From the IMG/VR virus record IMGVR_UViG_3300020131_000074, positions 1-21,579 of that record: a stretch of 21,579 nucleotides of DNA. One strand, 5' to 3'. Below are positions 1 through 21,579 of this stretch, in pieces. This DNA is from a virus. The notes under the pieces were generated by a model that had not been told where the DNA came from, ran no database searches, and saw only the letters and a program-made list of their open reading frames with translations. Position numbers and translations under genes: made by a program. The number at the start of each line of letters is the position of its first letter. Position 1 is the stretch's first letter.

Positions 1-2
1 GG

Positions 3-2519: not shown

Positions 2520-2530
2520 GGAAGAACTTC

Positions 2531-4213: not shown

Positions 4214-4214
4214 C

Positions 4215-5069: not shown

Positions 5070-5089
5070 CTGTCTAGTTTTTGAGACAG
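5070..5089 (+). promoter_or_regulatory. Perfect dyad CTGTCT-N8-AGACAG (operator-like)
   Basis: Immediately after the stop codon of the 284-residue gene lies a perfect 6-bp inverted repeat with an 8-nt AT-rich centre. It covers the region where the -35 contacts of the putative tail-tube promoter (-10 at 5097) would fall. It lacks a following T-run, so it is not a standard terminator. A regulator-binding site is possible but unproven. Confidence 0.35.
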
Positions 5090-5093
5090 GATC

Positions 5094-5102
5094 TGTTATG
5101 AT
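5094..5102 (+). promoter_or_regulatory. Putative extended -10 promoter for the tail tube gene
   Basis: TGTTATGAT matches the extended -10 pattern TGnTATAAT with one mismatch, in the only real gap (89 nt) of the late operon so far. No good -35 is present at 16-18 nt, as is usual for extended -10 promoters. A start near 5109 would precede the tail tube ATG by ~50 nt. A dedicated promoter would fit the need for very many tail-tube copies. Confidence 0.4.
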
Positions 5103-5104
5103 TA

Positions 5105-5125
5105 AGAGGCGCAGGATGCGCTTCT
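5105..5125 (+). promoter_or_regulatory. 5'-leader stem-loop of the tail tube mRNA
   Basis: AGAGGCGC and GCGCTTCT form an 8-bp stem (one G-U) around the 5-nt loop AGGAT. It lies at the expected 5' end of a transcript from the -10 at 5097. Stem-loops at the mRNA 5' end are known to protect highly expressed transcripts; that role here is inferred. Confidence 0.35.
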
Positions 5126-5158
5126 AACCCACCTAACTTCGTCAAGGAGGACGATGTA

Positions 5159-5983: not shown

Positions 5984-6001
5984 GCCCGAGCCGCCTCGGG
6001 C
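5984..6001 (+). other. Hairpin directly after the tail tube stop
   Basis: GCCCGAG and CTCGGGC form a perfect 7-bp stem around CCGC. It begins on the first base after the stop codon and has no T-run. It may protect the 3' end of the tail-tube mRNA or act with the terminator that follows. Confidence 0.4.
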
Positions 6002-6028
6002 GGCCGGCACGGTCTTCCTTAGGACCTT

Positions 6029-6055
6029 CTGGCCGCCTTCGGGCGGCCAGCTTTT
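6029..6055 (+). terminator. Intrinsic terminator after the tail tube gene
   Basis: CTGGCCGCC and GGCGGCCAG form a perfect 9-bp stem closed by a TTCG tetraloop, followed by CTTTTATC. This is a clear rho-independent terminator lying between the tail tube gene and the chaperone/tape-measure genes. With a promoter upstream it would make the tail tube a separate abundant transcript while leaving some read-through for the downstream tail genes. Confidence 0.8.
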
Positions 6056-6068
6056 ATCGAGGCCTGGC

Positions 6069-6632
6069 ATGTCCATATTCAATAGGCATCACCAACCTTT
6101 CGCGGTCCCTTTACTTGCCTTCGAACGGTTTTCCGAGCTCCGTCAGCAGCTGACCGACGACGCTCAAGTGCTCGAATCCGCCGTCATCCCGACCCTGGCC
6201 GAATGTTGCGGCATGCCCCAGCCGACCGCCGACGCGATCGAGTACTTCATCGAGCGCCTCGAAGCTGCCGGGCGGGAGGCAGACTCCCTGTCCAATCCTT
6301 CCCAACCGACACCGGGTAAGACACTCGGATCCGCCTACGCCGCGGCGCTGCGAGAGCTGGATACCGCCGGACTGATTCTCTACATGTGCGCCTTTGATTT
6401 CCATAAGGCGAACTACGTATACACCCAGCTCGACCGGGACGTCGCCTTGAAGATGCTCGATCACTTCCTGGCGCTGAAAGGCCAGGAGAACAACCTCTTG
6501 TTCGAAGCCTGCCTGTACGGCTTCGGCGGCAAGTACGACGCTGACGGCGGGAGCGCCGAGGTGGTCACGGTAGACCTCAGCAGCGAAGACAACTTCAACA
6601 TGCTCGCCCAACTTTTCGCTAAGACGCATTAG
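6069..6632 (+). CDS. Putative tail assembly chaperone (187 aa)
   Basis: The ATG follows GAGG at 6059-6062. The gene sits exactly between tail tube and tape measure, where siphophages encode the chaperone that coats the tape measure before tail polymerisation. The protein is acidic and largely helical (FSELRQQLTDDAQVLESAVI, ADAIEYFIERLEAAGR, MLDHFLALKGQENNLLFEACLYGFGG), as known chaperones are. Many phages make a second product here by ribosomal frameshifting. In this window only 9 nt separate the stop from the tape-measure ATG, and the -1 and +1 frames close at once, so no frameshifted extension is possible at the 3' end. The function is inferred from position and composition. Confidence 0.6.
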   Translation: MSIFNRHHQPFAVPLLAFERFSELRQQLTDDAQVLESAVIPTLAECCGMPQPTADAIEYFIERLEAAGREADSLSNPSQPTPGKTLGSAYAAALRELDTAGLILYMCAFDFHKANYVYTQLDRDVALKMLDHFLALKGQENNLLFEACLYGFGGKYDADGGSAEVVTVDLSSEDNFNMLAQLFAKTH

Positions 6633-6641
6633 GAGCCCAGG

Positions 6642-9600
6642 ATGGCTGACAAGATCCAACTAGACGCCGTCGTCGACTACATCATCAAAGCCGGGGATGT
6701 TACCAACCTGCCCGAATTCCAGCAGCAGGTCAGTAAGCTCCTGGGCGGCCTCGCCCGGGAGCTCAAGATTCCGAAGGTGCATCTCCCGGTCAACCTCGAG
6801 GCGGGCGACGTCTTGTCTGAAGACCAGCTGAAGGCCTTGAAGGGCGAACTGCACGACGCCTTGAGACAGATCAACCAAGCCCTCCGGCAGGAAACCGACG
6901 GCGCCAAGAGGCAGGCCCTCGCCTCCGTCCGGCTGTTCTACGAGGACATCTCCCACGCCCTCAGCACGATCAAGACCACCAAGGTCACCCCGACGACCCA
7001 AGGGCTGTTCAAGCAGATCCTCGCGAAAGAGCTCGACATCACCGACCCGAAGCTGAAGCAGAAGCAAAAGGCCCAACTCCGGGAATACGCCGCCGCCCTG
7101 GAGTCGCAGTCGAGGGCGCTGAAGGAGATCCAGCGGAAAGCCGCCCGCGGACGCTCGGTCTACTTGCCGGGTGAAGGCGATGGATCGGGCCAGGTGATCA
7201 AATCCCTGCCCTTACAAATTCCGCAGCTCGGCGTCGCGGCTCAGCAGAACCTCACCACGGTTCGGAAGTTCAACCAGCTGACGGACGAGGATCGGATCGC
7301 GGCCCGCAAGGACGCGGAAGCCCTTAAGCTCCGGAAAGGCACCAATCAGCTCGAAGTCTCCGCCGCCAAGCAAGCCGAACGGCAAGCCGAGACTAAGAGG
7401 CGTCGTCAGGAGGCAGAGGACCTTCGGATTCGGCGCGGCACCAATCAGCTGGAGGTTAAGGCCGCGAAAGAGGCGGAGAAAGCCGTGCAACGCGAGCGGG
7501 CCGCCCGCTTCTTGACCGGCGCCGCCGGCCGAGAGCTCGAAACCATTGGCGGGGACCTGACCCGCGCCGGCAAGGAATTCGACTTCGGGCTGATTCGCCG
7601 CGCCCTCAATTCCAGGATCAAGCAGCAGCTCAAGGCAGCCAAGGAAGCGATCACCGAAGCCGCCGCTGAGACGGCGTTCTCGAACGTCCGGTCCTTGGAA
7701 GACTTCAAGCGGAAGCTGGACGAGCGCCGGCGGGAGGTCGAAGGCACGACCTTGGGCCGTTCCCTCACCAAGAAACGGCAGCTGGCGGAGGACTCCTCCC
7801 AGTTCGCGTCCCGCTTGCTCGGGCGGGGCAGGCTCGAGGAGCTCGACGAGCCGACCCGGAAAGCGATCAAGGATGCTCTGAGCCGGGCGGTCGCCTCCTC
7901 CCGCGCCTACCGGGAAGCCGCGGCCGGCAGCCAGGAAGCGATCGAGGCGGAGCGCCTGTACCTTTCCTTGCTGGAAAAGGAGATCAAGTTCAAGCGCGAG
8001 CTGAAGGCGCTCGAAGCGGGCCCACCGGTGGCGGCTCCCCGCGCCGACCGGACCCGGATCGACCAGAAGCTCGCGGACCTTCGGGCGCTCACCGCACAAC
8101 GCGGGCGGGGGCGGCGGGCGATCGATGCGGTGGGGGGACTTTCCAACGTCCTCGATCTGCCCAAGGACACCTATGAAGATGCGCTGGTTTACCTCAAAAG
8201 CCAGCAGCAGCACATCCAGCAGCGGATCAAGGACAGCGACGCCGGCACCGGGCAACGCCTGACCCCGGGGGAGATCAGCGACCTCAACCGGCAGTTCGCC
8301 GAGCAAGCCGTCGCCATCAAAAAGGTCAACGCGGAGCTTCGTGGTAACGTTGGCCTCTGGCACCAAGCCTCCCTGGCGATGCGGGCATTCTTCCGCTATG
8401 CGATTCTGTACGGGTCCGGCTTCGCCTTGCTGGAAGGCCTCCGCCGGCTGACCGGCCAGGTGTTCGATCTTGAGGAAGCCCTCAAAGGGATCCAGGCCGT
8501 CTCGCAGGCCACCTCGGCGGATATGCGGAACATCGAATCCGCGATCAAGCAGACTGCGACCACCACCAAGTTCTCGGTCCAGGACATCGCGGAAGCCACG
8601 CAAACCTTGGCGCAGGCGGGTGTCGAGGCGGCGGACCTGCCGAAGGCCGTCGAGAACGTCGCGCTGTTCGCCGGTGCGACCAAGAGTTCCCTGCAGACCG
8701 CGGCGGACGTCATCGCCTCGATGCGGTCGGTCTTTGCCGATCTTTCCGACCGGACCCTGGCCGATCAGCTGACCAACGCCATCAACATCTCGAAACTGAC
8801 CGCGGACGATCTCAAGACCCTGGTCAGCTTGCAGGCGCAGACGGCGAAATCCTTCGGGCTCAGCTCCAAGCAAATCCTCGGGCTCAACGCCACCTTGTCG
8901 AACATCGGTATCAAGCCGTCGACCATCGCCACCGGCTCCCGCGAAGCCTTGATCGAGGTCCTGTCGCCGGACGAGAAAACCGTCCGGGCGCTGATCCCCT
9001 TGTACCAGAAGATGTTCGGGCAGATCCTGACTGGCAAGGAGATCCGGCAAAGGTTCCTGGCCTTCCAGCAGGACGACAACCCCTTGCTGGCGGCGCTGCA
9101 GGAATACCGGCGGCTCGGTATCGGCGGCGGCGGTCCCAATACCGACGCCTTCCGGGGTGTTCTGGAACGCCGGGCGGAGAACGTATTCCTGCCGCTCCTC
9201 GATTCGCTCGACATCCTCGAGAAGAACATCACCCAGGTGTCGCGGGCGGGCGCCGCGGCCGAGGGGTCCGAGACCCAGATGGAAGCCGCCAACAACCAGA
9301 TCCGGCGGTTCGGCCAGACCATCCTGTCCCTGACCCACACCATCGCGAGCGACGGGCTCCCGGTGGTGAGCCGTTTCTTCAAGTCCCTGGCGGACGGCGC
9401 GAAGTCGCTGCAGGACCGGATTATTGATCGCAAGGCGACCTTGGGTGAGGATACCAGCAAGGCCGCCTTGTCGGGGCTTGGCACCGGGCTTTTGACCTAC
9501 CTCTTGTCTCCCGGCACGAGACTAGCCCGCGGGGCGTTGGGCGTCCTCGGCGGGTTGGCCGGCGGGATTGGCTCGTTGACGGCGTCGCCGGATAACCGCA

Positions 9601-12164
9601 CCGCCAAGGATCTGACCGAACTCAGTGGGACGGCGGGCACGGGGCTTGCCATCGTCGGTGGAGCGATCACAGGCTTCCAGGGGCTTGTGGCGTTGGGCAA
9701 AGGGATTTTCTCTAAGCTTTCCGGCTCTCTGAAGGTTATCTCCACGGCTGCTTCCTGGACCCCGCTCGGCCGGATGGTCGGGTTACTGGCCTCAGCCCTG
9801 GTTGCCGGCAAGGTGGTGTATGACAAATTTTTCGCCAAAGGCCCTTCGCTCGACACCCGGTTGGAAGGCATCGAGGCCCAGCGCACGGCCAAACTCCAGA
9901 AAACCGACGCGGTCAAGCAGGAGTTCGCCCCTTTTTCGGCGGACTCCCAGGGCGGGCCTGCCGAGGAAGCCCGGCAGCTGGCGGACCAGATCTACGGCAA
10001 GGAGATGGACGAGCTGGCCTTCCAGCTGTTCGTGCAGAAACTGGGGGTGGTGCGTCAGAACCTTCTGGATGAACTGAAACGGCTGTCGAATAAAAAGGCC
10101 TCGGGTCAAGACATCGGCGAATCGGGCGAAGCGAAGCTCAGGGAGTTCGAACAGCTCTACGGCTCGGAGTTGTTCTCCGGAGCCCTACCCAAGACCGTGG
10201 ATGAGGCGAAAACTTTCGTCACCTCTCTGCAGAGTTTCTACGCGGGGTTGGAGCAGAAAGGCCAGGAGCTTCTGAACGGCCAGGGCGATCTGGAGGCTAT
10301 GACCGATAAGATCATCGCAATGACGGTGGCGGGCAAGCTCAAGCTTGCCCCAACGGACATGTCCTCGCTCCTGGTCAGTATCCAGGACGCGGCGGTCAAC
10401 GGCCAAGTCGAAATCCTCAAGGAATTCAGGTTCCAGGTTAACAATGCGATTGACGCCTTGGTCAGCCAAGGCAAAGCGTCGCTCGACAATGTCGACTACG
10501 TTCGCCTCCTGAACATCAAGGACACCATTCAGCCGGCGATTGATCAAGCCAAGCAACGCGCTGCTGAGATCGCGGCGGAGAAAGCTCGTCTGCAAGCCGC
10601 TCGCGAGAAAAACGCCGCGGAACAGGAGAAGGAGGGCCAATCCGAGCTCGATCTCAAGGAAGTTGATCGGCTCAGCAAGATCCTGGAAACCAAACGCCGG
10701 GTGGTCGACGAGCAGATCGCAGTCGCCAAGGACGAGAAGGACCAGAACAAGATCAGCGCCCTGATCCTGGAGCGGGCCGGCACCGAGGAAGCCATCAACC
10801 GCTTGCTGACCCGGAAGGCCCAGCTCGAAGGAGTGATCACCGACGACCTCATTCAACAGGAGGCAGGGCTTCGGCGGAAGCAGAACGAGGAGCACTCGAA
10901 GCGCCTGACTCTGGAACAGGGTGCCTCGAAGGAGATCGAGAAATCGAACAAACAGCTGCAGACTCAGCGCAACAAGCTGCAGAAGATCAACGAGCGCTTG
11001 TCCAGCGCCGAGCAGCGGTACCGCGAATCCCTCGACAAGCTCAATGAAGCCAAGGGCAAACAGCGGGAGTCTCAAAACTTCTTTGCCGACGCCAAGCGCG
11101 AGCTGTCCGGCGAGCAGATCTCGCCCTCCGACCGGATCCGGGAACTCTTGGATCGCGCCAGAAAGCAGCTTAAGGGCGGCGCTTTCGACGAAGCCGAGTC
11201 GGATGCTAGGGGCGTCGTCGATTTCGTCCGCTCGGGGCTGCAGGACGGCACGGTCTCCCGGTTCGACGCAGGAAGCGTGGTCGACGAGGCCGCCACGATC
11301 GCCGCGGAGTCCCAGAAAAAGAAAGTGAGCACCGCGGAGGAACGGGCGATCCGAGACAAAAACGCTCTGCTGCAGGTTCAGGCGGACGCAGCAGCGGTAC
11401 AGGCGAAGATCGACGCCTTGGAAAAGCGGATCGAGGATCTTGGCAAGCTGAAGATCGGCTTCGACCCGAAGCAAGTCGACACGGTCGCCGACCAGCTCTT
11501 GGCGCAGCTCGATGACAAGCTCCAGGCCCATCCGGTCGAATTGCCGATCTCGGGGCCCGACGGGAAGCCGATCCCATCGGACACCACGGGCGCGGCGACG
11601 CCGGCCCCCTCGGCGGCTTCGTCCGCCTCGACCGACGCGGCGTCTCCGAAGATCTTTAGTTACGCGGACGAGAGTGGCCGTAGGGTCTACACCGACCGTT
11701 CTACCCCTATTGAGAAGGAGCCCCAAACAGGAGAGCAAAGATTTACGCAATCCCCTTATGGGGCGCCGACGTCGCTTCCCGACAGTCTCGTCGACTCTGT
11801 TCATAAGCCCCTGCCCGAGATCACCTTCAGCAACCCGGCCAACGGCGTCGAAGGTATTTCCCTGGCTGATGCGGAGCGCTATACGGAACGCCTGAGACGT
11901 GGTGGGCCAAGGCTTGGAAACATCTCCTCCCTGGCTGAACGGGCAGCGCGTATCCATCTGCCGGACTTGGCCGCCCCGGAGGTCAATTTGCCCTCGGTGA
12001 GCCCCGCCACTACCTTGTCACAAGCTGCCGAACAGGTTTCCAACAAGACGCCGGTCAACCTCTACATCAGTAATGAGAGGGTGCCCGTCTTGGCCGACAG
12101 TAACGCGGCTGATACACTACAGCGACTGCTTGCACTCCAAGCGCTCAAGGAAGGGCGACGCTGA
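6642..12164 (+). CDS. Tail tape measure protein (1840 aa)
   Basis: The ATG follows AGGAG, 9 nt after the chaperone stop. This is the longest gene in the window. Residues ~1-560 are charged, helical and coiled-coil-like, with a 33-residue tandem repeat at about 227-292 (both copies contain RGTNQLEV or KGTNQLEV). Residues ~580-900 match the conserved phage-tail tape-measure domain (LEEALKGIQAVSQATSADMR, then TTKFSVQDIAEATQTLAQAG, and ITGKEIRQRF-like sequence). Three hydrophobic Gly/Ala/Leu segments lie at about 940-985, 996-1022 and 1045-1064, as expected for a protein that enters host membranes on DNA ejection. Long coiled coils follow (~1300-1400 and ~1426-1478). Near the C-terminus, residues 1670-1687 (KIFSYADESG then YTDRS) resemble the DUF4124 domain of proteobacterial envelope proteins. 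Its stop overlaps the next ATG (TGATG). The protein should set tail length and occupy the tube lumen. Confidence 0.92.
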   Translation: MADKIQLDAVVDYIIKAGDVTNLPEFQQQVSKLLGGLARELKIPKVHLPVNLEAGDVLSEDQLKALKGELHDALRQINQALRQETDGAKRQALASVRLFYEDISHALSTIKTTKVTPTTQGLFKQILAKELDITDPKLKQKQKAQLREYAAALESQSRALKEIQRKAARGRSVYLPGEGDGSGQVIKSLPLQIPQLGVAAQQNLTTVRKFNQLTDEDRIAARKDAEALKLRKGTNQLEVSAAKQAERQAETKRRRQEAEDLRIRRGTNQLEVKAAKEAEKAVQRERAARFLTGAAGRELETIGGDLTRAGKEFDFGLIRRALNSRIKQQLKAAKEAITEAAAETAFSNVRSLEDFKRKLDERRREVEGTTLGRSLTKKRQLAEDSSQFASRLLGRGRLEELDEPTRKAIKDALSRAVASSRAYREAAAGSQEAIEAERLYLSLLEKEIKFKRELKALEAGPPVAAPRADRTRIDQKLADLRALTAQRGRGRRAIDAVGGLSNVLDLPKDTYEDALVYLKSQQQHIQQRIKDSDAGTGQRLTPGEISDLNRQFAEQAVAIKKVNAELRGNVGLWHQASLAMRAFFRYAILYGSGFALLEGLRRLTGQVFDLEEALKGIQAVSQATSADMRNIESAIKQTATTTKFSVQDIAEATQTLAQAGVEAADLPKAVENVALFAGATKSSLQTAADVIASMRSVFADLSDRTLADQLTNAINISKLTADDLKTLVSLQAQTAKSFGLSSKQILGLNATLSNIGIKPSTIATGSREALIEVLSPDEKTVRALIPLYQKMFGQILTGKEIRQRFLAFQQDDNPLLAALQEYRRLGIGGGGPNTDAFRGVLERRAENVFLPLLDSLDILEKNITQVSRAGAAAEGSETQMEAANNQIRRFGQTILSLTHTIASDGLPVVSRFFKSLADGAKSLQDRIIDRKATLGEDTSKAALSGLGTGLLTYLLSPGTRLARGALGVLGGLAGGIGSLTASPDNRTAKDLTELSGTAGTGLAIVGGAITGFQGLVALGKGIFSKLSGSLKVISTAASWTPLGRMVGLLASALVAGKVVYDKFFAKGPSLDTRLEGIEAQRTAKLQKTDAVKQEFAPFSADSQGGPAEEARQLADQIYGKEMDELAFQLFVQKLGVVRQNLLDELKRLSNKKASGQDIGESGEAKLREFEQLYGSELFSGALPKTVDEAKTFVTSLQSFYAGLEQKGQELLNGQGDLEAMTDKIIAMTVAGKLKLAPTDMSSLLVSIQDAAVNGQVEILKEFRFQVNNAIDALVSQGKASLDNVDYVRLLNIKDTIQPAIDQAKQRAAEIAAEKARLQAAREKNAAEQEKEGQSELDLKEVDRLSKILETKRRVVDEQIAVAKDEKDQNKISALILERAGTEEAINRLLTRKAQLEGVITDDLIQQEAGLRRKQNEEHSKRLTLEQGASKEIEKSNKQLQTQRNKLQKINERLSSAEQRYRESLDKLNEAKGKQRESQNFFADAKRELSGEQISPSDRIRELLDRARKQLKGGAFDEAESDARGVVDFVRSGLQDGTVSRFDAGSVVDEAATIAAESQKKKVSTAEERAIRDKNALLQVQADAAAVQAKIDALEKRIEDLGKLKIGFDPKQVDTVADQLLAQLDDKLQAHPVELPISGPDGKPIPSDTTGAATPAPSAASSASTDAASPKIFSYADESGRRVYTDRSTPIEKEPQTGEQRFTQSPYGAPTSLPDSLVDSVHKPLPEITFSNPANGVEGISLADAERYTERLRRGGPRLGNISSLAERAARIHLPDLAAPEVNLPSVSPATTLSQAAEQVSNKTPVNLYISNERVPVLADSNAADTLQRLLALQALKEGRR

Positions 12165-12688
12165 TGGGATGGACGACACGCAATTTCGCTATCGGGACCG
12201 CGATCATTGAGGTCCCCCAGGCGCTTCAGTTTTCGCAAACCTACGAAGAATTCGGCGGCGTCAATACCCTCCGCATGGCGGATGGCTCGGCCGTTCGCCA
12301 GTCCAACTGGTCGAAGCTCCGGACTACCTTGTCTGGTGAAGGGTTCGTTCCGCCCGGCCTCGCGGGCGTTGCCTGGAAGACCCAGCAAACCCTGAAGTGC
12401 GGCGTCAAACGCTCGCTTCAGTCCCCGAGCAATGTCATCGCCCTTCCTGCCGCCCGGCGCACAGACGCGGGTTATGAACCGAACGGTTACGCCTTGAAGG
12501 ATGGGATGTGGTTACCCTCCTCGGTCAGCGTCGTCACCAACACCGCGACCGTGACCGCGGTCACCGGTGCCACGGCCTACATGGTCGAGTATTACCCCCA
12601 ATTCACCGCATTTATCGAGCCCCCGCAGGCCGACTTCAATCGGACCACGGGAACTTATCGCTGGACGATCAACGCTGAAGAGGTTTAA
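12164..12688 (+). CDS. Tail-tip protein, possibly distal tail (Dit-like) (174 aa)
   Basis: The ATG shares bases with the tape-measure stop (TGATG), so the two are translationally coupled. The protein is beta-rich and without membrane segments. The first half (FSQTYEEFGGVNTLRMADGS then VRQSNWSKLRTTLSGEGFVP) is followed by a hydrophobic strand pattern in the second half (SVSVVTNTATVTAVTG, AYMVEYYPQFTAF). The first gene after the tape measure in siphophages is usually the distal tail protein that joins the tube to the tip. That is the basis for the role; no diagnostic motif is visible. Confidence 0.55.
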   Translation: MGWTTRNFAIGTAIIEVPQALQFSQTYEEFGGVNTLRMADGSAVRQSNWSKLRTTLSGEGFVPPGLAGVAWKTQQTLKCGVKRSLQSPSNVIALPAARRTDAGYEPNGYALKDGMWLPSSVSVVTNTATVTAVTGATAYMVEYYPQFTAFIEPPQADFNRTTGTYRWTINAEEV

Positions 12689-12690
12689 AG

Positions 12691-14355
12691 ATGGCTGCAC
12701 GCTACTGGAGAGTTGACCAATTCACCGTGACCGGAGGCGCGGGGTTTGATCTGGCCATTTACGCGCTGGAGCTTTACAGCTTGGGCTCCGCCGTCTCCAA
12801 CACCGTGACGCTCAATTGCAACAAGACACCGACTGCAGGGACCTTGGCTGAACTTCAAGACGGCAGCAATGTGACCGGCGCCACCTTCGCGGCGGCGGAT
12901 GTCGCGACCCTCGAATTCATCTTCGATGCCGGCGCGGGGGCCGCCTTGGAGTCTGACGCCATTAAGTTCGTGGTCAACGGCGTGGACAACTACCCGGCCT
13001 CGGTGCGGGTGTCCTGGTCCAACGACGCCGTGTCCTGGATCATCGCTGGACAGATGAGCAACTTGACTGCCAACACCTCGGGCATCTCGCTTTACCTTGA
13101 CTACTGTCCTCCGTTCCGAGGGGCGACCGGGACGATCACGGAAAGCCTGGCCGAGTCTACGTTTACCGTCCGGATCGCGAACGCCACGAACGGCACGGTC
13201 CTGAAGTCCGTCACCACCAAGACCAACTTTTACGGGTACCACAACACCTCGACGGCGGATGACACCCCTTTGATGATCACGGCGTACGCCGATCACGGCT
13301 CTCGCTGGCGGTCCAGCGTAACAAAATCCTTAACAAATCTAATCTTCCCGTCGGATCCGGCCGTCGGGCATTACTACGAGTGCGAGGTGGCCGGCACGAC
13401 CGGGGCGACCGAACCGGTGTGGCCCACCAACGGCGGCACCGTGGTCGATGGTACCGTGACCTGGCGAGACAAGGGACAAGTGGTGCAACCGGTAACCCAA
13501 TACCCTCTCTCCCTGGCGAGAATGCCGGGTGGCGGGTTGGTGACCGACGGGTTGGTCTTCATTCTGGACGCCGGGTTCGCTCGAAACTTCGCCAACGCCT
13601 CGGACCAACTGTGGCGGAACTCCGTTCCGTCTCCGGCGGACGGGTCGGCGGCGAGTGCCTACAATTTCTATCGGGGCGTGGACGGCACTTCAGAAACCAC
13701 CGACCCGACGTTCACGGGGACTATCAACAACGGGATCTCGGCGACTCAGGCGAACCAGCCCTACTTTTCGTTCTCCCTCACCGCGCCGTACAAGTTCTTT
13801 ACCTTGGCCGCCGCGACGGCGTTTCTCAAAAGCCTCCACAAGGCCGGGGCGAAATTCACCTTCGAGGTGTTTTTGTACGCCGGCACGGCTCTGACGGATG
13901 CCCCCATCTTCGATTCCGGCACCGGCTTTACGGCGACCGACGTGCATCAAGGTGTCCAGTTCTGCCGCTACCCGGCCTTGTTCAAGAACGGGGTCCTGGT
14001 CGCCGGGGACACCGGCGGCAGCCCCGCGTTGCAAAAGTTCTCGGACGCCACGGTTACGGGGTCGACGTTCAACTACCTGGCTGCCTCCATCGACGGCACC
14101 GGGGCGCAGGCCTCGTTCTTGTATCGGAACGGCGCCTACGACCCGGTGGGCGGACAGAATACTTGGGACGGGACTTTCGTCTCCCCGAGCACGGTGGATC
14201 CGCCCAACCTGCCGCGTATCGGCATCCGCGGGGATGCCGCCGCGGCGGCTTTAGGGACGGCTCGAATCTACTTCCTGAGGCTCTACAACCGGAATCTCAC
14301 CAAGGCCGAGCTTGACCAGAACTTCAACGCCCAGATGCACCGGATGCAGATCTAA
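12691..14355 (+). CDS. Tail adhesin with discoidin-like and LamG-like domains (554 aa)
   Basis: The ATG has GAAGAGG nine bases upstream, straddling the previous stop. Residues 1-~130 start with YWRVDQF and contain IYALELYSLG and RVSWSNDAVSW, the pattern of F5/8 type C (discoidin) sugar-binding domains. Residues ~225-265 (YYECEVAGTTGATEPVWPT, then DGTVTWRDKG) are the short GTTG-TEPxWPT module common in phage fibres. Residues ~285-554 look like a LamG/concanavalin-type jelly roll: GLVFILDAGFARN at its start, FTFEVFLYAGT in the middle and ARIYFLRLYNRNLTKAELDQNFNAQ-type sequence at the end. The protein is probably a tail-tip receptor-binding protein recognising surface glycans. The domain recognition is by eye; the substrate is unknown. 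Confidence 0.7.
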   Translation: MAARYWRVDQFTVTGGAGFDLAIYALELYSLGSAVSNTVTLNCNKTPTAGTLAELQDGSNVTGATFAAADVATLEFIFDAGAGAALESDAIKFVVNGVDNYPASVRVSWSNDAVSWIIAGQMSNLTANTSGISLYLDYCPPFRGATGTITESLAESTFTVRIANATNGTVLKSVTTKTNFYGYHNTSTADDTPLMITAYADHGSRWRSSVTKSLTNLIFPSDPAVGHYYECEVAGTTGATEPVWPTNGGTVVDGTVTWRDKGQVVQPVTQYPLSLARMPGGGLVTDGLVFILDAGFARNFANASDQLWRNSVPSPADGSAASAYNFYRGVDGTSETTDPTFTGTINNGISATQANQPYFSFSLTAPYKFFTLAAATAFLKSLHKAGAKFTFEVFLYAGTALTDAPIFDSGTGFTATDVHQGVQFCRYPALFKNGVLVAGDTGGSPALQKFSDATVTGSTFNYLAASIDGTGAQASFLYRNGAYDPVGGQNTWDGTFVSPSTVDPPNLPRIGIRGDAAAAALGTARIYFLRLYNRNLTKAELDQNFNAQMHRMQI

Positions 14356-17036
14356 TGCCGTACACGCCCAGCTACAACCTGACCCTCCCCGGCGGGCAGT
14401 ACACGCCGGACTATGATATTGACCTGAATCCCTCCGGGGGCGTCGGCTTTTCAGAGGTGGGCAGTCTCAGCGCGACCCTCGAGCAGACTATCTACGCCAC
14501 CGGTACGGTCTCGGCGACGATCGAACAGCAGATCCTGGCTGACGTCTACACCATCAAGGCCCCGGTCCAGCAGGTGGTTTACGACGTCGGCTCGCTTTCG
14601 GCGACGATCGAACAGCAGATCATCGCCTACCAGGTCGGTTCGATCTCGGCGACCCTGGAGCTTCAGATTTACACCACGGGCTCGATCGCGGCGACGATCG
14701 AACAGGTGCTTTACGACCCCAGCGGGTTCTTGCCAGCCCCCGGCGACACGCAGTTGTGGGCGGTCAAGGTTTACCTCGACGGCGTCGACGTTACGGCCAG
14801 CGTCACCGGCCTCATCACCGTCGACGCGGAAGAAGGCGCGGCCCGCATCGCCACCTTCGTCATGATGCCGACCTTCGGCCCGATCGCGGTTTCGGCATGG
14901 GTCAACAAGCCGGTTCGGATCGACTACCAACTGGCGACCCCGGGTGACGTCGTAATCAAACCCTTGTTTATCGGTCGGGTGGATACCCCGGAGTACGACC
15001 CGAACACCCGCCTGACCACGTTCAAATGCTCGGACTTCCTGCAGAAGCGCTTCGAGCAAGCCTCGCGCAAGCAGATCCTCTCGGAACTCGGCGGATCCTG
15101 GTCGAGTGTGGTGTTCGACGAGCACGCCAGCAACGTGGATTACGCCCACGACGTACTATCCACGATCCCGGCCAGTTACGACCTCACGGTCGATGGAGTG
15201 GGCAAGCTGACCTACTGGAACACCCAGTCGGGTCCGGATTACACCTTCACCGCCGGGCACTTGGTCGATGGCTCCCTCACGGTGGAACTGGCGTCCAGCC
15301 GGAGCGTGGTGAACCAGGTGGAGCTTGACATCGGGTTCCGGTTCGACCGGATCCACGAGCAGAGGCAGCGGTACGCTTGGGATTTCTTCTTGTCCTCGTT
15401 CAGCTTGTCCTGGAAAGACGTGGCCGTCGACGGCATTCCGATGCCGACGACGAACATGATCCAGGAGGCGATTCAAGGGGTGGATTGGCCCTTGGTCGGT
15501 TCGCCCGTCTTCTTCGCGCCGCCCTCCTATGTCGAGTATTACACCACCGGTTCCGACGGCACCCTCAATGTTGGCTATCTGGTCAATCCGCCCGGCATCT
15601 GTGTCGGCGCGAATTTCACTTTGGCCAAGCGCTGGGCGCAGCAGATCACCGAGCGCAGCCGGTTTCTGGTCAAAGCCCCGCAGTCCATCGAGCAGATGGG
15701 GTTGGTCCCGGAAGAACAGGGCTACGCCTACGAGCCGGATTCGAGCGCCTACCACTTTTATAATGTGTTCGAGGAAACCTGGAACAAGCCCTATGTCGAA
15801 GGGCGGGTCGGTTCGGCGGGGGTCGTGAGCCAGCAGTTCACTCCCGCAGATGCCGTCTCCGGCAGCTACACCTGGTACCGTTATCCGTTTCCCTCGGCGG
15901 CGAACAGCACCGATTATGGCGAGTATGTCGATCTCGACGAGATCCAGATCGTCAACCTCCTCGCAAGCCCGGAGAACCTTTCGGCCTGGTCCGGCAGCGC
16001 CGGGGTCGTCAGCAACGTGTCCGTGAATCTGGACGGCGAAGCCAAGGGCGACAAACTGACTCTGGCCTCGAACACCTATCGGGAAACCACGGCCAACGTC
16101 GAGCCCAGTGTCACCTACACCGTGTCGGTTTACCTCCAAACGGATGTCGTGAACAACGGCCGGTCGATCTACCTGACCGCGTCCGATGACGATGAGGTCT
16201 CCGAGGCCACGGTGTGTTACCTCTCCACCCAGTGGGCCCGGTACAGCGTCACCCTCACCACCGGGGCCAGCGCCACCCAGCTGACGCTCCGCCTCGGGGG
16301 CGGCGGCGACGCTCTGGTCGTGTTCGCCGACCGGGCGATGGTGAACGAGGGCCCTCTGATGGAGTACACGGCGAGCACCGGCAAGTCCAGCCGGCAGCTC
16401 GCCGAGGAAGCGATCGTCTGTGCCCAAGCGCAGGCCAAGACCGCGATCCTGGCCTCGCACCGCAACAACGTCGTCCAGTTCAAGACGATACTCAACCCCT
16501 TGCTGGAGCGGTTCCACAAGCTCAGAGTCGACACAGCGTCCGTGCAAGCGACCGGGAAGGTCAAGCAGATCACGCACGAGCTCGACACCTTCGCGTGCTC
16601 GGCTTTGACCACCGTGCGACTGGCGATCAGCAAGGTGGTGGCCAATTCGGTCCCGGCCGAGACCGTGTTGGCCGCGCCGGCCAAAGCGGTGTCGGCACCC
16701 CTGTCGCCGGACGAGGACGAGGTGACGGCAACCGGCCGCTTAGGGACCTGGATCGGGTTCCTGGAAAATCCGGTGCCCGGCGCCCCTTACGATTACGTGT
16801 CGGGCGTCAACGGGACCACCTACTTGTCGTACGACCCGATCTACGGGTATATGGCCGATGCGACCGCCACCCGCAGCACCTTCGATTTGAGCAAGCTGTA
16901 TTATGGCTACGGCGAGCCGCGCTTCGTCATCGGGACGCCGGCGATCCACCGCAGTAACACAGATGAGACAATCAAGTATAATCAGGCGGAGGTCATCGTC
17001 GCCATTCCGGACGATGAACTTGTGATGGCGGCCTAA
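14355..17036 (+). CDS. Tail hub / baseplate protein with inserted carbohydrate-binding domain (893 aa)
   Basis: The ATG overlaps the previous stop (TAATG). Residues ~35-120 hold four copies of a G-S-(L/I)-S-A-T-(I/L)-E-Q-Q-I motif, 14-29 residues apart. Two of them share an identical 24-bp DNA stretch (14510 and 14597 regions). From ~131 a tail-hub fold follows: WAVKVYLDGVDVTASVTG, then FIGRVDTPEYDPNTRLTTFK with CSDFLQKRFE. It resumes near the end with KVKQITHELDTFACSALTTVRLAIS-like sequence, typical of gp27/gpJ-type hubs. Residues ~533-675 (LLASPENLSAWSGSAG, then TYTVSVYLQTDV and WARYSVTLTTG) look like a CBM4/9-type jelly roll placed inside the hub. The protein should form the central tip through which DNA exits and may contact surface polysaccharide. 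Hub identity is likely; the CBM subfamily is uncertain. Confidence 0.7.
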   Translation: MPYTPSYNLTLPGGQYTPDYDIDLNPSGGVGFSEVGSLSATLEQTIYATGTVSATIEQQILADVYTIKAPVQQVVYDVGSLSATIEQQIIAYQVGSISATLELQIYTTGSIAATIEQVLYDPSGFLPAPGDTQLWAVKVYLDGVDVTASVTGLITVDAEEGAARIATFVMMPTFGPIAVSAWVNKPVRIDYQLATPGDVVIKPLFIGRVDTPEYDPNTRLTTFKCSDFLQKRFEQASRKQILSELGGSWSSVVFDEHASNVDYAHDVLSTIPASYDLTVDGVGKLTYWNTQSGPDYTFTAGHLVDGSLTVELASSRSVVNQVELDIGFRFDRIHEQRQRYAWDFFLSSFSLSWKDVAVDGIPMPTTNMIQEAIQGVDWPLVGSPVFFAPPSYVEYYTTGSDGTLNVGYLVNPPGICVGANFTLAKRWAQQITERSRFLVKAPQSIEQMGLVPEEQGYAYEPDSSAYHFYNVFEETWNKPYVEGRVGSAGVVSQQFTPADAVSGSYTWYRYPFPSAANSTDYGEYVDLDEIQIVNLLASPENLSAWSGSAGVVSNVSVNLDGEAKGDKLTLASNTYRETTANVEPSVTYTVSVYLQTDVVNNGRSIYLTASDDDEVSEATVCYLSTQWARYSVTLTTGASATQLTLRLGGGGDALVVFADRAMVNEGPLMEYTASTGKSSRQLAEEAIVCAQAQAKTAILASHRNNVVQFKTILNPLLERFHKLRVDTASVQATGKVKQITHELDTFACSALTTVRLAISKVVANSVPAETVLAAPAKAVSAPLSPDEDEVTATGRLGTWIGFLENPVPGAPYDYVSGVNGTTYLSYDPIYGYMADATATRSTFDLSKLYYGYGEPRFVIGTPAIHRSNTDETIKYNQAEVIVAIPDDELVMAA
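16954..16982 (+). promoter_or_regulatory. Possible internal promoter before the last tail genes
   Basis: A perfect TATAAT (16977-16982) stands 17 nt after GTAACA (16954-16959, four of six matches to TTGACA), near the end of the hub gene and ~70 nt before the GTG at 17051. The local sequence is AT-rich for this genome. It could give extra transcription of the last three tail genes. It lies in coding sequence, so chance cannot be excluded. Confidence 0.25.
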
Positions 17037-17050
17037 ACACGGAGGTTGAC

Positions 17051-17476
17051 GTGGCCCTAAGCTTCAAACTGTACACCGACGCAAACCTAACAGCCCCACT
17101 GGCTGGGAATCTGATTTGCGCCCAGAACGCCGACGGCAGCACGCCGGCCGTGGATAAAATCCTCTATCTAGGGTCCACGACCGCGAGCCGGAAGCTCGAG
17201 GCCAACTCCAACCCGGGCGTGGACCAGATCGTGGTCAGCGTCGTGGACGCCGTGCCGGCGTCCGGACATCCGGCGACCGAGGTCAAACTGGCCACCACCT
17301 TGGCGGGCCTGAACTCCGCGGTCGGCGGCGCGTCCCTGAATATCGGCACCCAGATCTTGTCCGGGGCGGCCAACGCCATCCCGATCTATATCCGGGTCAA
17401 TGATTCCACTGGGCAGGTAGGCACGGCGACGGAGCTCTCCGTCGCGATCGCCAACGTGCGCGAGACCAGCGTCTAA
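17051..17476 (+). CDS. Minor tail protein, unknown family (141 aa)
   Basis: The GTG start is preceded by ACGGAGG, 14 nt after the hub stop. The protein is beta-rich and low in charge. It begins MALSFKLYTDANLTAPLAGN and ends with alternating strands (AIPIYIRVNDSTG, ELSVAIANVRET). The middle (DQIVVSVVDAVPASG, SLNIGTQILSG) also reads as short strands. This suggests a small jelly-roll or Ig-like virion domain near the tail tip. No signal peptide or catalytic motif is present. It overlaps the next ATG by one base (TAATG). The family is not recognised. Confidence 0.75.
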   Translation: MALSFKLYTDANLTAPLAGNLICAQNADGSTPAVDKILYLGSTTASRKLEANSNPGVDQIVVSVVDAVPASGHPATEVKLATTLAGLNSAVGGASLNIGTQILSGAANAIPIYIRVNDSTGQVGTATELSVAIANVRETSV

Positions 17477-17871
17477 TGGTAGGGGAGGCCGCCACCGCGG
17501 GGCTGAATCGCGCCTGGACCGGGCGGACGGATGAGCGGCTGGCCGAGGAGATCGGCAAGCTCACCCCGCCCGAGAAACGGAAGCACCAGACGCTCGGCCC
17601 AGCGCGGACAGCCGCTTCGATCGAGGCCCAGACCGGCATTGGCAAGCTGAATGTCGCGGATGCGGGCGGCGACAGTGACTCGACGGCCGCGGGGATCACC
17701 CCGCCCCTCACCGAGCCGGATGTGTCCGCTCGGGAATACTACGACCCGCAAACCCTGACTTCGTCGGACGGCCTCTTCACCTTTGAAGTGCGTCCGATCG
17801 CCAAGGCGGTGTTCATGGACGCCGCCGGTCAACGCGTGGAACTGATCTACGCCGAGCCGCTCTTGCCGTGA
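17476..17871 (+). CDS. Minor tail-module protein, unknown function (131 aa)
   Basis: The start shares its A with the previous stop (TAATG). The N-terminal ~70 residues are charged and helical or disordered (DERLAEEIGKLTPPEKRKHQ). A Gly/Asp/Thr-rich linker follows, and the last ~45 residues are strand-rich (LFTFEVRPIAKAVFMDAAG, RVELIYAEPLLP). It ends with a GTGA overlap into the next gene, so it is certainly within the tail operon. The acidic linker and small C-terminal domain would suit a tip accessory or chaperone-like protein, but there is no direct evidence for either. Confidence 0.7.
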   Translation: MVGEAATAGLNRAWTGRTDERLAEEIGKLTPPEKRKHQTLGPARTAASIEAQTGIGKLNVADAGGDSDSTAAGITPPLTEPDVSAREYYDPQTLTSSDGLFTFEVRPIAKAVFMDAAGQRVELIYAEPLLP

Positions 17872-19607
17872 TCCAGCTCGATCACATCGTCAAGGAGAAT
17901 GACCCTGGGATCCTAGGGTTTCCCTACCACGGGCGGCTGGTGAACGGGATGCTGTTACTCCCGGCGACGGTGCAAGTCACCAACACCGCGGGCAACTTCT
18001 ACTTGCCGAACGGCCGCCAGGTGTATTGGTCGGCGGACTACAGTGCCTATTACTTCCCCTTGACCGCGCCCAGTTCGTCCCTGTCGTTCTACGTCAAAAA
18101 GCCCGGCATCGCTCCCATCGTCCGAACCCCGGCCGAGCAAGCCTGGGACCAAGCGAATGGGTATGAATGGCGGAACGATGCCATCCTCTATGGGGGTTTT
18201 TTGTATGGGAAATCGCTGGGGTCCACCGACCGGTTCCTGTTCTTCGGAACGGACGGCAGCCGCTGGCTGATCGATGTCAGCGGGATCACGATTACCGACG
18301 GCAATACCCTTGGTGGTTCGATCTCTGCGACAAAATTCGGGGAGTTCGGCGGGACCTCGGAAGTCATCACAGCGCCGGTGTCGGTCAACGACCTGGGACA
18401 GGCCACGCCGACTTTGTCCTATTCGGGAACGATTGATTTCCAAAACGACGACCCTGCCACCCGGACGATCAAAGCGACGACGGTCAGAGTCTCGGATACG
18501 ACCTCCTCCGGGGACAAGGCGATCCTCGGGCTGTACGACACGCAGTCTCGAAGCGCCGCCAACCCCGCGATCGGCCGCTGGTCGGATTGGGACGGGTACA
18601 AATACAACGCCATTACTTTTTGGCCTTTGGGGTTTGTTGAGCTGTCCCTCAGCTATAACCCGAACGGATCCCCGAAGATCACAGCCACTTGCACCGTCTC
18701 GAAGACGCGGGAACAAGTGCTCGGAGGCTATTCCTCGTCCAGCGTCCCGGCCTCCGTCGTCCTTGTCGACCAGAACGGGGACTCCTGGTACGGCTACCCG
18801 ATGATCAATACGGTTTATTCAATCACCGACCGGATCCTCGGGATGGGGTACACCAAAGCGAATGCTCTGTTTGAGATCAAGCTGAGTTTTTCCGAGACCA
18901 TCTCGGGGACGTCGAGCTACGCCACGGACCCCACGGGGGTCACCGGGATGACCGGCTCGACCACGACCACGGCCAGTCTCACCTTGTCGGTAGGGTCGCA
19001 ATCCAAGACGATCAATTACACAGGGTCGAGCACCAGCACTTGGGGCCCGCCGTCGGTCCCGATCGACCAGACCAATTACGAGGCGATCAACACCGTCTCG
19101 GCCGAGCAGTTCACGAGCGGGTACACCCAGCATTCCCGGGTGCTCACGGACGTCCAGATCATCGATGAGAATCACGCGGTGTATGGTGTACCGGCCGCGT
19201 CGTCCGTCGGGTTCCGGGTTTCGACCGGGAGCAGTCAAAATGCTATCGACTGGGATCGGTATCAGATGTCGAGTAGGGTTATCGCGACGCTCCTTGATGC
19301 TGACACCGCGCAGGTCGGGGACTTAGCGGCGGTGAAGTTCAACCTGGGCCTGCAGGGGAACAAGCTGGCGGTCCACCGGGCCAAGGCATACCGAGAACTG
19401 GACGGCTCTCAGAACGGGCTACTCTATTCAGACGCTCACTACCTGAAGACGGCGCTGGCCTATAACAGCGAGGTCAATCACATCACCCCGAACGACATCT
19501 ATCAGGAGAATGTGACCTACGCCTCGTCCCCTCTGGCGTTTGGGGTTTTCGACCCTTACAACGAAGCGATCCTTTGGCCCTACGCCTCGCCGATCTGGGT
19601 GGTCTAG
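17868..19607 (+). CDS. Large minor tail protein, unknown family (579 aa)
   Basis: The GTG overlaps the previous TGA (GTGA). The protein is beta-rich and full of Ser/Thr/Tyr/Gly, with no membrane segment or signal. The N-terminus (HIVKENDPGILGFPYHGRLV) leads into strand-rich regions with many aromatic residues (VYWSADYSAYYFPLTAPSSS, GYEWRNDAILYGGFLYGKS). A Ser/Thr-rich stretch lies at ~355-400 (GTSSYATDPTGVTGMTGSTT), probably a flexible linker. As the last gene of the tail operon it is a candidate tip or fibre protein contacting the host. Its stop codon shares the palindrome CTAG with the stop of the convergent pilin gene. No known domain is recognised. Confidence 0.75.
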   Translation: MIQLDHIVKENDPGILGFPYHGRLVNGMLLLPATVQVTNTAGNFYLPNGRQVYWSADYSAYYFPLTAPSSSLSFYVKKPGIAPIVRTPAEQAWDQANGYEWRNDAILYGGFLYGKSLGSTDRFLFFGTDGSRWLIDVSGITITDGNTLGGSISATKFGEFGGTSEVITAPVSVNDLGQATPTLSYSGTIDFQNDDPATRTIKATTVRVSDTTSSGDKAILGLYDTQSRSAANPAIGRWSDWDGYKYNAITFWPLGFVELSLSYNPNGSPKITATCTVSKTREQVLGGYSSSSVPASVVLVDQNGDSWYGYPMINTVYSITDRILGMGYTKANALFEIKLSFSETISGTSSYATDPTGVTGMTGSTTTTASLTLSVGSQSKTINYTGSSTSTWGPPSVPIDQTNYEAINTVSAEQFTSGYTQHSRVLTDVQIIDENHAVYGVPAASSVGFRVSTGSSQNAIDWDRYQMSSRVIATLLDADTAQVGDLAAVKFNLGLQGNKLAVHRAKAYRELDGSQNGLLYSDAHYLKTALAYNSEVNHITPNDIYQENVTYASSPLAFGVFDPYNEAILWPYASPIWVV

Positions 19608-20143
19608 CAGGCCCCTTGCCCCTTTTCCACCGACGCCCTCCCCACCGGTCCCAGCGTCAGGTTCTTGGATTTGTTCGCGCCATCGTCGCACAGGGTGACG
19701 GTAACGAGACCGCCGGTGGGCCGCGTTCTCGCTCCCAGCGAGTTGAAGCCTAGACACACCCGGTCCTCGGTCACTTGGATGGCGTGACCCCTGGCTTCCG
19801 TTGAATAAAGGACGAGGTCCGCCGGGTAGCCGTCGTGCGCCGCGGCGTCGATCTCGCAGCCGGCGTCGAGCGTCTGGTCGTAATCCACGAACACCAGCAT
19901 CCCTTGCTTCCAATCCGTGCCGCAGGTGTTGCCAGGGCCTTTGGGGCAGAACGACACCGGGGCGTTCCGTCGGATCGCCTCGCCCCGGATCTTGACCAAA
20001 TCGAGGAGAAGATCGTTGGCCTGGGTGACCAGGCGGTTGTTGACGATGAGGTCCCGGAAGGACGGGACGCCTAAGGCGAGGGTGATGGCCAGGACCGCGA
20101 CGGCCACTATCAGTTCGATGAGGGTGAAGCCTGAGACTCTCAT
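19604..20143 (-). CDS. FimT/GspH-family type IV pseudopilin (phage cargo gene)
   Basis: The ATG (minus strand) has AAGGA eight bases upstream. The 179-residue protein has a classic type III signal: a 5-residue leader MRVSG, cleavage before F6, and the hydrophobic helix FTLIELIVAVAVLAITLALG with the essential Glu at position 10 (E5 of the mature form). The following helix (FRDLIVNNRLVTQANDLLLD) and a beta-rich C-terminal domain with six cysteines (66, 74, 96, 130, 152, 179) match FimT/GspH minor pseudopilins. These are processed by prepilin peptidase and built into a type IV pilus or type II secretion pseudopilus. The C-terminus reads GRAS at 168-171, whereas the DNA-uptake FimT proteins carry GRxR there. 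It is encoded opposite to the tail genes and next to the attachment region, as lysogeny-expressed cargo genes often are. The family is sure; the role is not. Confidence 0.88.
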   Translation of the reverse strand: MRVSGFTLIELIVAVAVLAITLALGVPSFRDLIVNNRLVTQANDLLLDLVKIRGEAIRRNAPVSFCPKGPGNTCGTDWKQGMLVFVDYDQTLDAGCEIDAAAHDGYPADLVLYSTEARGHAIQVTEDRVCLGFNSLGARTRPTGGLVTVTLCDDGANKSKNLTLGPVGRASVEKGQGAC

Positions 20144-20307
20144 ACCTGGTTTCCTTATAAATAAAGTCTAAGTGTAGGCCAGCGCCCAAAGTCTGCTGTG
20201 TCAAAACTGTGTCTAGGGTTATGTGAGAAATCCAGGGAAATCAGATCGTCGGCAACGGTCGACCTCCTATAACCCTTTGATTTTCTTACATTACCTGTAT
20301 TGCTAGA
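20144..20307. other. Non-coding left arm of the attachment region
   Basis: This 164-nt stretch is AT-richer than its surroundings and holds no credible gene. It contains the upstream region of the pilin gene and a pair of direct repeats that look like integrase arm sites. I find no 5' half of the tRNA gene here. On the minus strand a perfect TTGACA (20204-20199) is present, but no -10 box lies at the right distance, so the pilin promoter remains unclear. Confidence 0.6.
20198..20215 (+). repeat. Paired direct repeats GTGTCAA / GTGTCTA (left integrase arm sites)
   Basis: Two heptamers start at 20198 and 20209, exactly 11 bp apart, about one helical turn. The same pair geometry and sequence occur on the other side of the tRNA core. 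Paired short direct repeats flanking the core are the usual arm-type binding sites for the N-terminal domain of tyrosine integrases. Confidence 0.5.
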
Positions 20308-20355
20308 GCATTCATAATGCGGGTGTCGGCGGTTCAAGTCCGCCCGTAGCTACCA
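20308..20355 (+). other. Attachment core: 3' part of tRNA-Met(CAT)
   Basis: These 48 nt equal tRNA positions 29-76. They hold half the anticodon stem, the loop TTCATAA with anticodon CAT at 20313-20315, the variable loop, and a perfect 5-bp T-arm GGCGG/CCGCC around TTCAAGT. The 3' acceptor strand CGTAGCT, the discriminator A and an encoded CCA follow. The two lowest anticodon-stem pairs are broken and no D-arm or 5' acceptor strand lies upstream, so this is not a working tRNA gene. A tRNA 3' half beside an integrase gene is the typical attP/att core. On integration it would restore the host tRNA-Met gene. Confidence 0.85.
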
Positions 20356-20362
20356 CAAATTC

Positions 20363-20394
20363 AAAGGCTTGGGCGTTTCGCCTAAGCCTTTTTT
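20363..20394 (+). terminator. Intrinsic terminator of the tRNA-Met fragment (also behind the integrase)
   Basis: AAAGGCTTGGGCG and CGCCTAAGCCTTT form a 13-bp stem (one G-U pair) with a TTT loop, followed by more Ts. It lies 7 nt after the tRNA CCA and is placed to end a tRNA transcript on the plus strand. In reverse it lies 10 nt beyond the integrase stop and may end that transcript too, though its T-tract is poorer in that direction. Confidence 0.8.
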
Positions 20395-20401
20395 GTTTCC
20401 G

Positions 20402-20420
20402 GTGTCAACGGAGTGTCAAC
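20402..20420 (+). repeat. Paired direct repeats GTGTCAAC (right integrase arm sites)
   Basis: Two identical octamers start at 20402 and 20413, 11 bp apart, and overlap the 3' end of the integrase gene. They mirror the pair at 20198/20209 on the other side of the tRNA core, in the same orientation. Confidence 0.5.
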
Positions 20421-21412
20421 CGCGTCAGCGGGTTAAGCTCCAGCACTTCCCGCAAATGATCCGGCGCGAGATGCGCATAGCGCATGGTCATGGTTAGATT
20501 GGCATGGCCGAGGATGCGCTGAAGCGCCAGGATATTACCACCGTTCATCATGAAGTGGCTGGCGAAGGTGTGACGAAGAACGTGGGACATCTGGCCTTCA
20601 GGAAGTTTAATTCCCGATCTTTCGACAGCCTCCCGAAAAGCACTGTAGCAGGATCGGAAAAGACTCCCCGCCTTTTTCGGACGACTATCGAGTATTTCCT
20701 CGACCAGCGGCAACGCTACCGGAATGACTCGGACTCTTCCGCTTTTAGTTCCGCGAAATGTGACCGCGGAAGGATCGCGAGACATATCCCGGACGTGAAG
20801 CCCCTCCCCTTCGGACCATCGGCATCCGGTGGCAAGACAGATCCTTACGACATGGTAAGTGTCCGGATTCGTTGAGGCTCGACATTCATCCAGAAGCAAA
20901 CCTATTTGCTCTAAGGTCAGATACGATAATTCACGTTCATCGACGCGCAGCTTTCTGACCTTCGCCAGTGGATTACGTCCCGACCACTTGCCGATACGCG
21001 AGAGTTCCGAGAAGACCGCCGATAGCGTTGCCTGTTCCCGGTTGAGCGTGGCGACTTTCGTTCCTTCAGCCAATCGCCGCGAGCGGTATTCCACAAACGT
21101 CTCGGAAGTGAACGCGGTTGCCGGTGGATCGCCGATGTAATTGCATAGAGCGGTCAAGCGCTTGTAAGTATCCCCAGCAGATTTAAGGCCAATCCCGTGA
21201 TGATCAAACCATAGCTTGACCAGATCGGACAACGGACGCTTGTCAGGCTTTTCCGGTCGCCATTCTGGTTGCTGGATAATCTTTCCTTGAATGAATCGTT
21301 CAAACTGGAGAGCTTCGACTTTCGTGGGGAATTTTTTGCGAAAGCGTTTCCCGCCCCGACCGCCCGGTTGAATGTCGACCTGCCAGCCGGCCTCGGTTTT
21401 CTTGATCGCCAT
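20405..21412 (-). CDS. int: Tyrosine-recombinase integrase, P2-like
   Basis: This 335-residue protein should integrate and excise the phage DNA at the tRNA-Met site. Residues 1-~55 (basic, KRFRKKFPT) form the arm-binding domain; ~58-150 is the core-binding helical SAM-like domain (LSDLVKLWFDHHG onward). The catalytic domain shows all expected residues: R198 in ATGCRWSEGEGL, K223 in GTKSGR, H277 and R280 in SHVLRHTF, H303 in LGHAN and the nucleophile Y312 in MRYAHL. The RWSE form of box I is typical of P2-group integrases. Length is normal and the gene looks intact. The Shine-Dalgarno is weak, and a small gene ends 19 nt upstream, so the two are probably cotranscribed. Its 3' end abuts the attachment core, the usual arrangement for this family. 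Confidence 0.93.
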   Translation of the reverse strand: MAIKKTEAGWQVDIQPGGRGGKRFRKKFPTKVEALQFERFIQGKIIQQPEWRPEKPDKRPLSDLVKLWFDHHGIGLKSAGDTYKRLTALCNYIGDPPATAFTSETFVEYRSRRLAEGTKVATLNREQATLSAVFSELSRIGKWSGRNPLAKVRKLRVDERELSYLTLEQIGLLLDECRASTNPDTYHVVRICLATGCRWSEGEGLHVRDMSRDPSAVTFRGTKSGRVRVIPVALPLVEEILDSRPKKAGSLFRSCYSAFREAVERSGIKLPEGQMSHVLRHTFASHFMMNGGNILALQRILGHANLTMTMRYAHLAPDHLREVLELNPLTRLTLR

Positions 21413-21431
21413 GGTTCAGACCGGTCGGTGT

Positions 21432-21579
21432 CTACGCCGCCTTGCCGATCAGCCGCCTCAGGGCGAGGCCTTTTTCGATCTGTTCCCTTAAGTCCGCTTC
21501 GGTCAGGTTCCTGGAGCGGTAATAGCTCAGAAGATCGTCGAAGCAGTCGAGCCGCTTGAGGTTTTTCATGACCTCCCGC
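21432..21579 (-). CDS. Small basic ORF upstream of the integrase, open at the window edge
   Basis: Reading the minus strand from the right edge, an ORF runs to a stop 19 nt before the integrase. If the ATG at 21569 is the start it encodes 45 residues (MKNLKRLDCF to LRRLIGKAA). A GGGAGG lies only about two bases before that ATG, which is tight. The frame is open to the edge, so the true start may lie outside. The composition (helical, NLTEADLREQIEKGLALRRL) would suit a small regulatory or DNA-binding protein, and excisionase-like genes often precede an integrase. No family is recognised. Confidence 0.45.
   Translation of the reverse strand, partial: REVMKNLKRLDCFDDLLSYYRSRNLTEADLREQIEKGLALRRLIGKAA

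Follow-up and report, generated by a model that had tools for sequence, protein, structure and literature searches.

A phage-borne FimU/FimT-type minor pilin gene between a tail operon and a tRNA-Met attachment core: a candidate for receptor-modifying superinfection exclusion

Several prophage genes protect lysogens from pilus-dependent phages, namely, Tip of D3112, Aqs1 of DMS3, and PfsE of Pf phages (PMC12826054), all of which are small inhibitors of the pilus machinery. Another route is described for P. aeruginosa phage JBD68, whose receptor is a minor pilin (PMC13170266). According to the review PMC12826054, which cites Sztanko et al. 2024, the prophage-encoded P-FimU takes the place of host FimU in the pilus of JBD68 lysogens, the pili still assemble, and P-FimU is thought to bar infection by similar phages. 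P-FimU and the pilins of MD8, F10, PAN70, and LESphi2/3 (phrog_11596) are GspH/FimU-type prepilins of temperate siphovirus-type phages, and in JBD68 and its relatives the pilin gene lies within the tail operon, between the genes for the major tail protein and the chaperones. Among bacterial proteins of this kind, FimT binds DNA via a C-terminal GRxR motif (PMC8897410).

We analysed a window of 21,579 bases, the whole of one IMG/VR record, in which a gene for such a pilin lies between a tail operon and an attachment core. The features are as follows, the last line being the corresponding gene of a sister phage (L101, part of record G003).

6642-12164, plus strand: tail tape measure protein
12164-12688, plus strand: tail protein (phrog_5314), 29% identical to JBD68 gp14
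14355-17036, plus strand: tail tip protein (phrog_5842), about 30% identical to JBD68 gp15
17476-17871, plus strand: tail protein, 35% identical to JBD68 gp18
17868-19607, plus strand: last tail gene, 579 aa, putative receptor-binding protein, so named from its position and divergence
19604-20143, minus strand: fimT/fimU-like minor prepilin, complete ORF of 179 aa with an ATG start
20144-20160, minus strand: leader region of the pilin gene, with a likely Shine-Dalgarno sequence (AAGGAA) ahead of the ATG, as read from the sequence
20252-20305, no strand assigned: att-site arm of the tailed phage, similar in L101, which is without the filamentous phage
20306-20355, plus strand: 50-bp att core, a 3'-terminal piece of a tRNA-Met(CAT) gene that the window and L101 share without a mismatch
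20363-20391, plus strand: terminator-like hairpin right of the core
20405-21412, minus strand: tyrosine integrase of a filamentous phage, adjoining the replication initiator
21432-21579, minus strand: 3' end of the replication initiator of the filamentous phage (phrog_1159), complete in overlapping record L002 at 4209-5519
L101 16740-17294, strand opposite to the tail genes: FimT-like pilin of L101/G003, C-terminal end GRVRKE

The product of the gene at 19604-20143 is a genuine phage-borne minor pilin of the GspH/FimT/FimU kind. It begins with MRVSG-FTLIE, in which the Gly/Phe cleavage site is of the class III prepilin type and Glu5 falls in the predicted mature protein, and it has a hydrophobic N-terminal helix, six Cys residues, and GRAS close to the C-terminus. 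Pfam models for both the N-terminal motif (N_methyl, PF07963, 6.5e-6) and the GspH domain (PF12019, 2.2e-11, 44.6 bits against a cut-off of 21) matched above their curated cut-offs; NCBIfam returned the general N-terminal motif, with full-length pilin models, GspH among them, at sub-threshold level only. The JBD68/MD8 pilin family phrog_11596 also matched (4.2e-10), over residues 2-96 only, and an AlphaFold model of low confidence (pLDDT 46) has a pilin-like secondary structure, with a long N-terminal helix and strands after it. The sequence-only reading, which had described a complete prepilin with leader, Glu5, and cysteines, is confirmed on this point. It had also argued from GRAS, at the place where DNA-uptake FimT proteins have GRxR, that DNA binding may be lost and that interference is the likelier role. 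This argument did not hold up, as the sister pilin has the motif (GRVR) and roughly every second bacterial FimU/FimT homologue in the comparison is without it. The window gene is solitary, standing between tail operon and att core outside any pilV-pilW-pilX-pilE operon context, and no sigma-70 consensus promoter was found near it.

Two records of metagenome 3300021184 overlap the window. G001 (36 kb) corresponds to window positions 1-18218 at 99.99% identity and reaches about 17.9 kb further left, and L002 corresponds to positions 18248-21579 and extends 5.4 kb further right; the 29 bp missing between them belong to tail ORF 17868-19607, which is open, and this speaks for joining the two. G001 carries an integrase, a thymidylate synthase, and a ribonucleotide reductase (all three named from sequence alone), a probable large terminase and portal, and then the tail operon. 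The tailed phage's own integrase therefore sits on this linked contig, and the integrase that adjoins the core in the window, previously taken to be that of the tailed phage, belongs to another element: it is found beside the genes for Rep, Zot, and coat proteins of a Pf-like filamentous phage. At its left end the window holds long repetitive ORFs (1-1172 and 1031-2224): an upstream one, whose protein in G001 (17084-19063, reverse complement) consists of two halves that resemble each other, and one for an Ala/Ser/Thr-rich repeat protein.

The filamentous phage lies at window positions 20306-21579 and L002 positions 1-6546, abutting the tailed phage. Right of the core, L002 encodes Zot (PF05707, 8.8e-39), an Ace-like minor coat protein (DUF2523), a small coat protein, and the replication initiator, which is 33-37% identical to PA0727 of Pf1 and its relatives. 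In Pf phages the integrase adjoins the replication initiator, and we assigned the integrase at 20405-21412 to the filamentous phage because it has the same neighbour. In the simplest reading, a Pf-like filamentous phage has apparently inserted in tandem with the tailed phage, both using one tRNA-Met core; a possible alternative is that the junction in the window reflects a cointegrate of two circular genomes. Among L016-L094, relatives of the window integrase had no filamentous-phage Rep or Zot next to them. Type IV pili often serve Pf-type phages too, and the pilin of the tailed phage could also affect its filamentous neighbour.

With a tail protein of the window as query, we found the sister phage L101 in an 86,511-base record (G003) from a different metagenome, which we regard as circular because 127 identical bases are repeated at its ends. 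Its tail operon, 70-80% identical to that of the window at the DNA level, is followed by the convergent FimT-like gene, the 50-bp tRNA-Met core, and the phage's own integrase. The same order with an own integrase identifies the pilin as a gene of the tailed phage, between tail operon and attP, which is where the sequence-only reading had placed it. What that reading called attP is, in the window, a junction of two elements; the intact attP is in G003. Around the identical core the left arms are similar. On the right there is no such resemblance, which fits a filamentous phage occupying that side in the window.

Divergence between the two phages differs from gene to gene. The integrases of L101 and G001 are 83% identical and the tail tips 76-78%, in comparison with 26-29% for the last tail gene and about 35-40% for the pilin (35% over the whole length). 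Pilin and last tail gene thus form a divergent pair, as expected of a receptor and its binder varying together; the AlphaFold model of the last tail protein is weak (pLDDT 30). Between stretches that are adjacent in G001, the L101/G003 record has about 52 kb (positions about 2,600-54,500), a segment with long ORFs resembling replication genes that are absent from G001, and G001 may have suffered a deletion or been joined wrongly.

The tail-tip genes of the window are distant homologues (29-35% identity) of JBD68 gp14, gp15, and gp18, so the tailed phage has the tail tip of a pilus-dependent phage type and would itself probably use pili. We collected 80 contigs from IMG/VR that encode this tail tip, among them the window record in the form of G001, which ends before the pilin, and sought prepilin ORFs by script. 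Such an ORF was present in 46 of the 80, mostly inside the tail operon at the JBD68/MD8 position. In three contigs, L196 (the same as L101/G003), L199, and L200, it follows the tail genes and runs in the reverse direction, which is also the arrangement of the window. L199 and L200 are prophage contigs, each with an MD8-like pilin gene at 17019-17546 on the minus strand (49%; L199 was compared with MD8 gp11), and the downstream place of this MD8-like gene indicates that the pilin gene is not fixed to one position in this group of phages. In 28 of the 74 contigs that have the same tail tip and upstream sequence, the script found no prepilin ORF.

The descent of these pilins was examined in a tree of 38 proteins. 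Its bacterial members were retrieved by means of a profile built from the two phage pilins, which favours close resemblance. At 35% identity, the window and L101 pilins are no nearer to each other than to gammaproteobacterial homologues (34-39%), many of which sit in pilV-pilW-type operons. On the tree they fell among bacterial FimU/FimT proteins, with a poorly supported backbone and a long window branch, and apart from the JBD68/MD8 pilins (97/96 support). Phage copies as a clade of their own, a grouping raised from the sequence alone, were not recovered, and a single phage clade is nevertheless compatible with the AU test (p = 0.295 for the two pilins and 0.306 for all four). Independent recruitment of host pilins by these phages is possible. 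No relative of the window pilin was found in annotated phages (tblastn, E <= 0.01), a search of IMG/VR returned just an identical copy and distant pilins, the L101 pilin as query matched itself alone, and the C-terminal part of the pilin had no match in genome contigs.

The host is probably gammaproteobacterial, the sole hint being that relatives of the integrase come mostly from Gammaproteobacteria. In bacterial genomes these relatives are often oriented toward a tRNA gene, which in four cases is tRNA-Met(CAT), and the 50-bp core pattern was absent from 369 gammaproteobacterial-class genomes. In G003 the pilin gene and the phage's integrase stand on either side of the core; no FimT-like ORF was found in the flanks of the integrase relatives in genomes.

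We favour, at a probability of about 0.6, the view that the pilin is a lysogenic-conversion gene for receptor-modifying superinfection exclusion of the JBD68 kind. The prophage would supply a FimU/FimT-type minor pilin, presumably expressed in the lysogen, which the host prepilin peptidase PilD would mature and which would join the pilus-tip complex, replacing the host minor pilin or mixed with it. The pili would keep working with an altered surface toward this and related pilus-dependent phages, and lysogens would resist superinfection by them without loss of pilus function. This proposal is favoured by the complete GspH prepilin, the order of tail operon, pilin, core, and integrase in G003, the JBD68-homologous tail tip, the frequency of prepilins in contigs with this tail tip, the P-FimU precedent, and the divergent pair of pilin and last tail gene. 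It is weakened by the lack of a detected sigma-70 promoter and by a tail-tip homology of just about 30%, and the separation from the JBD68/MD8 pilins on the tree leaves shared descent with P-FimU no more than possible. The sequence-only reading had likewise proposed lysogenic conversion and exclusion of pilus phages; the place of a phage gene at the tail-distal, attachment-site end and the P-FimU precedent speak for this part, while the interference deduced from GRAS is dropped.

All of this presupposes that the gene is the phage's own. Two different elements do meet at the core in the window and the linked contigs, as they would if a host gene had been trapped between two prophages or if the assembly were chimeric. 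Either origin is strongly disfavoured and has, in our view, almost no chance of being correct: in the independent, circular G003 from another metagenome the genes are arranged alike and end with that phage's integrase, and the pilin gene directly abuts the convergent last tail gene, their stop codons overlapping on CTAG. No host pilin operon was found at this locus. The GC content of the window pilin (64%) fits the tailed phage (61%) and not the filamentous phage (55%); in L101 the pilin has 53% and the phage 56%, and this tracking of each phage's composition argues against a recent odd import. That the pilin is a virion part or a tail-assembly helper rather than a host modifier could be supposed from JBD68-like phages, where the gene is within the tail operon. 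We consider this very improbable, as the window gene is on the opposite strand and outside the operon, its product carries a leader that directs it to the membrane and to cleavage by the peptidase, and in many contigs that have this tail tip the sequence examined contains no pilin.

A host modifier, in turn, could act otherwise than by substitution. The phage subunit might enter the tip complex and stall assembly or retraction, leaving lysogens without functional pili. The selective benefit would be equal, other phages do shut pili down (PMC12826054; compare Tip, Aqs1, and PfsE, by another route), and a solitary gene without partners for the tip complex would suit such a role. However, pilus shutdown is usually the work of small inhibitors, whereas here a full-length member of a conserved pilin fold family is found in two phages and the JBD68 precedent is a working substitute, so we hold such poisoning to be unlikely. 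The pilin might instead serve host fitness or gene transfer through adhesion, DNA uptake, or surface sensing, given that FimT binds DNA by GRxR (PMC8897410) and the sister pilin ends in GRVRKE. With GRAS in the window protein, with such genes seen here only in phages with pilus-type tail tips, and with divergence common to the pilin and the last tail gene, we regard this role, too, as unlikely.

Receptor-modifying exclusion thus remains our preferred explanation, and it allows a more speculative extension, which we put forward tentatively and with well under even odds: phages with JBD68-like tail tips would have taken up minor pilins of their hosts on several occasions, and in the phages described here pilin and receptor-binding tail gene would diverge or be swapped as a pair at the attachment-site end, each prophage excluding exactly the phages with its own tail type. 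Apart from this extension, the gene itself widens the range of prophage-supplied pilus components, described in the cited sources from Pseudomonas phages only, to temperate phages of a probably gammaproteobacterial host, and its place in the prophage is the end next to the attachment site. A phage tail protein and a phage pilin, both variable, are thereby connected in a way that can be tested, and the case suggests that receptor substitution with pili kept working is a more general exclusion strategy.

In comparison with known systems, the closest locus is that of G003, which shares position, orientation, att core, and neighbouring tail operon with the window and differs in a pilin of 35% identity, its GRVRKE end, and an own integrase beyond the core. 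Bacterial FimU/FimT proteins of the GspH superfamily have the leader, Glu5, GspH domain, and cysteines in common with the window pilin, which differs from them in being solitary and phage-borne, in its long branch, and in GRAS, where high-confidence FimT proteins have GRxR. Unlike Tip, Aqs1, and PfsE, the window protein is itself a pilin. With the JBD68 group, for whose P-FimU a superinfection-exclusion role is proposed in the review PMC12826054, the window phage shares homologous tail-tip genes; its pilin is about 28% identical to theirs in alignment and is on a separate tree branch, and the pilin gene, which runs against the tail genes, follows the operon next to the att core instead of lying within it. 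The kind of system is already described in JBD68, and the window phage adds a probable further case.
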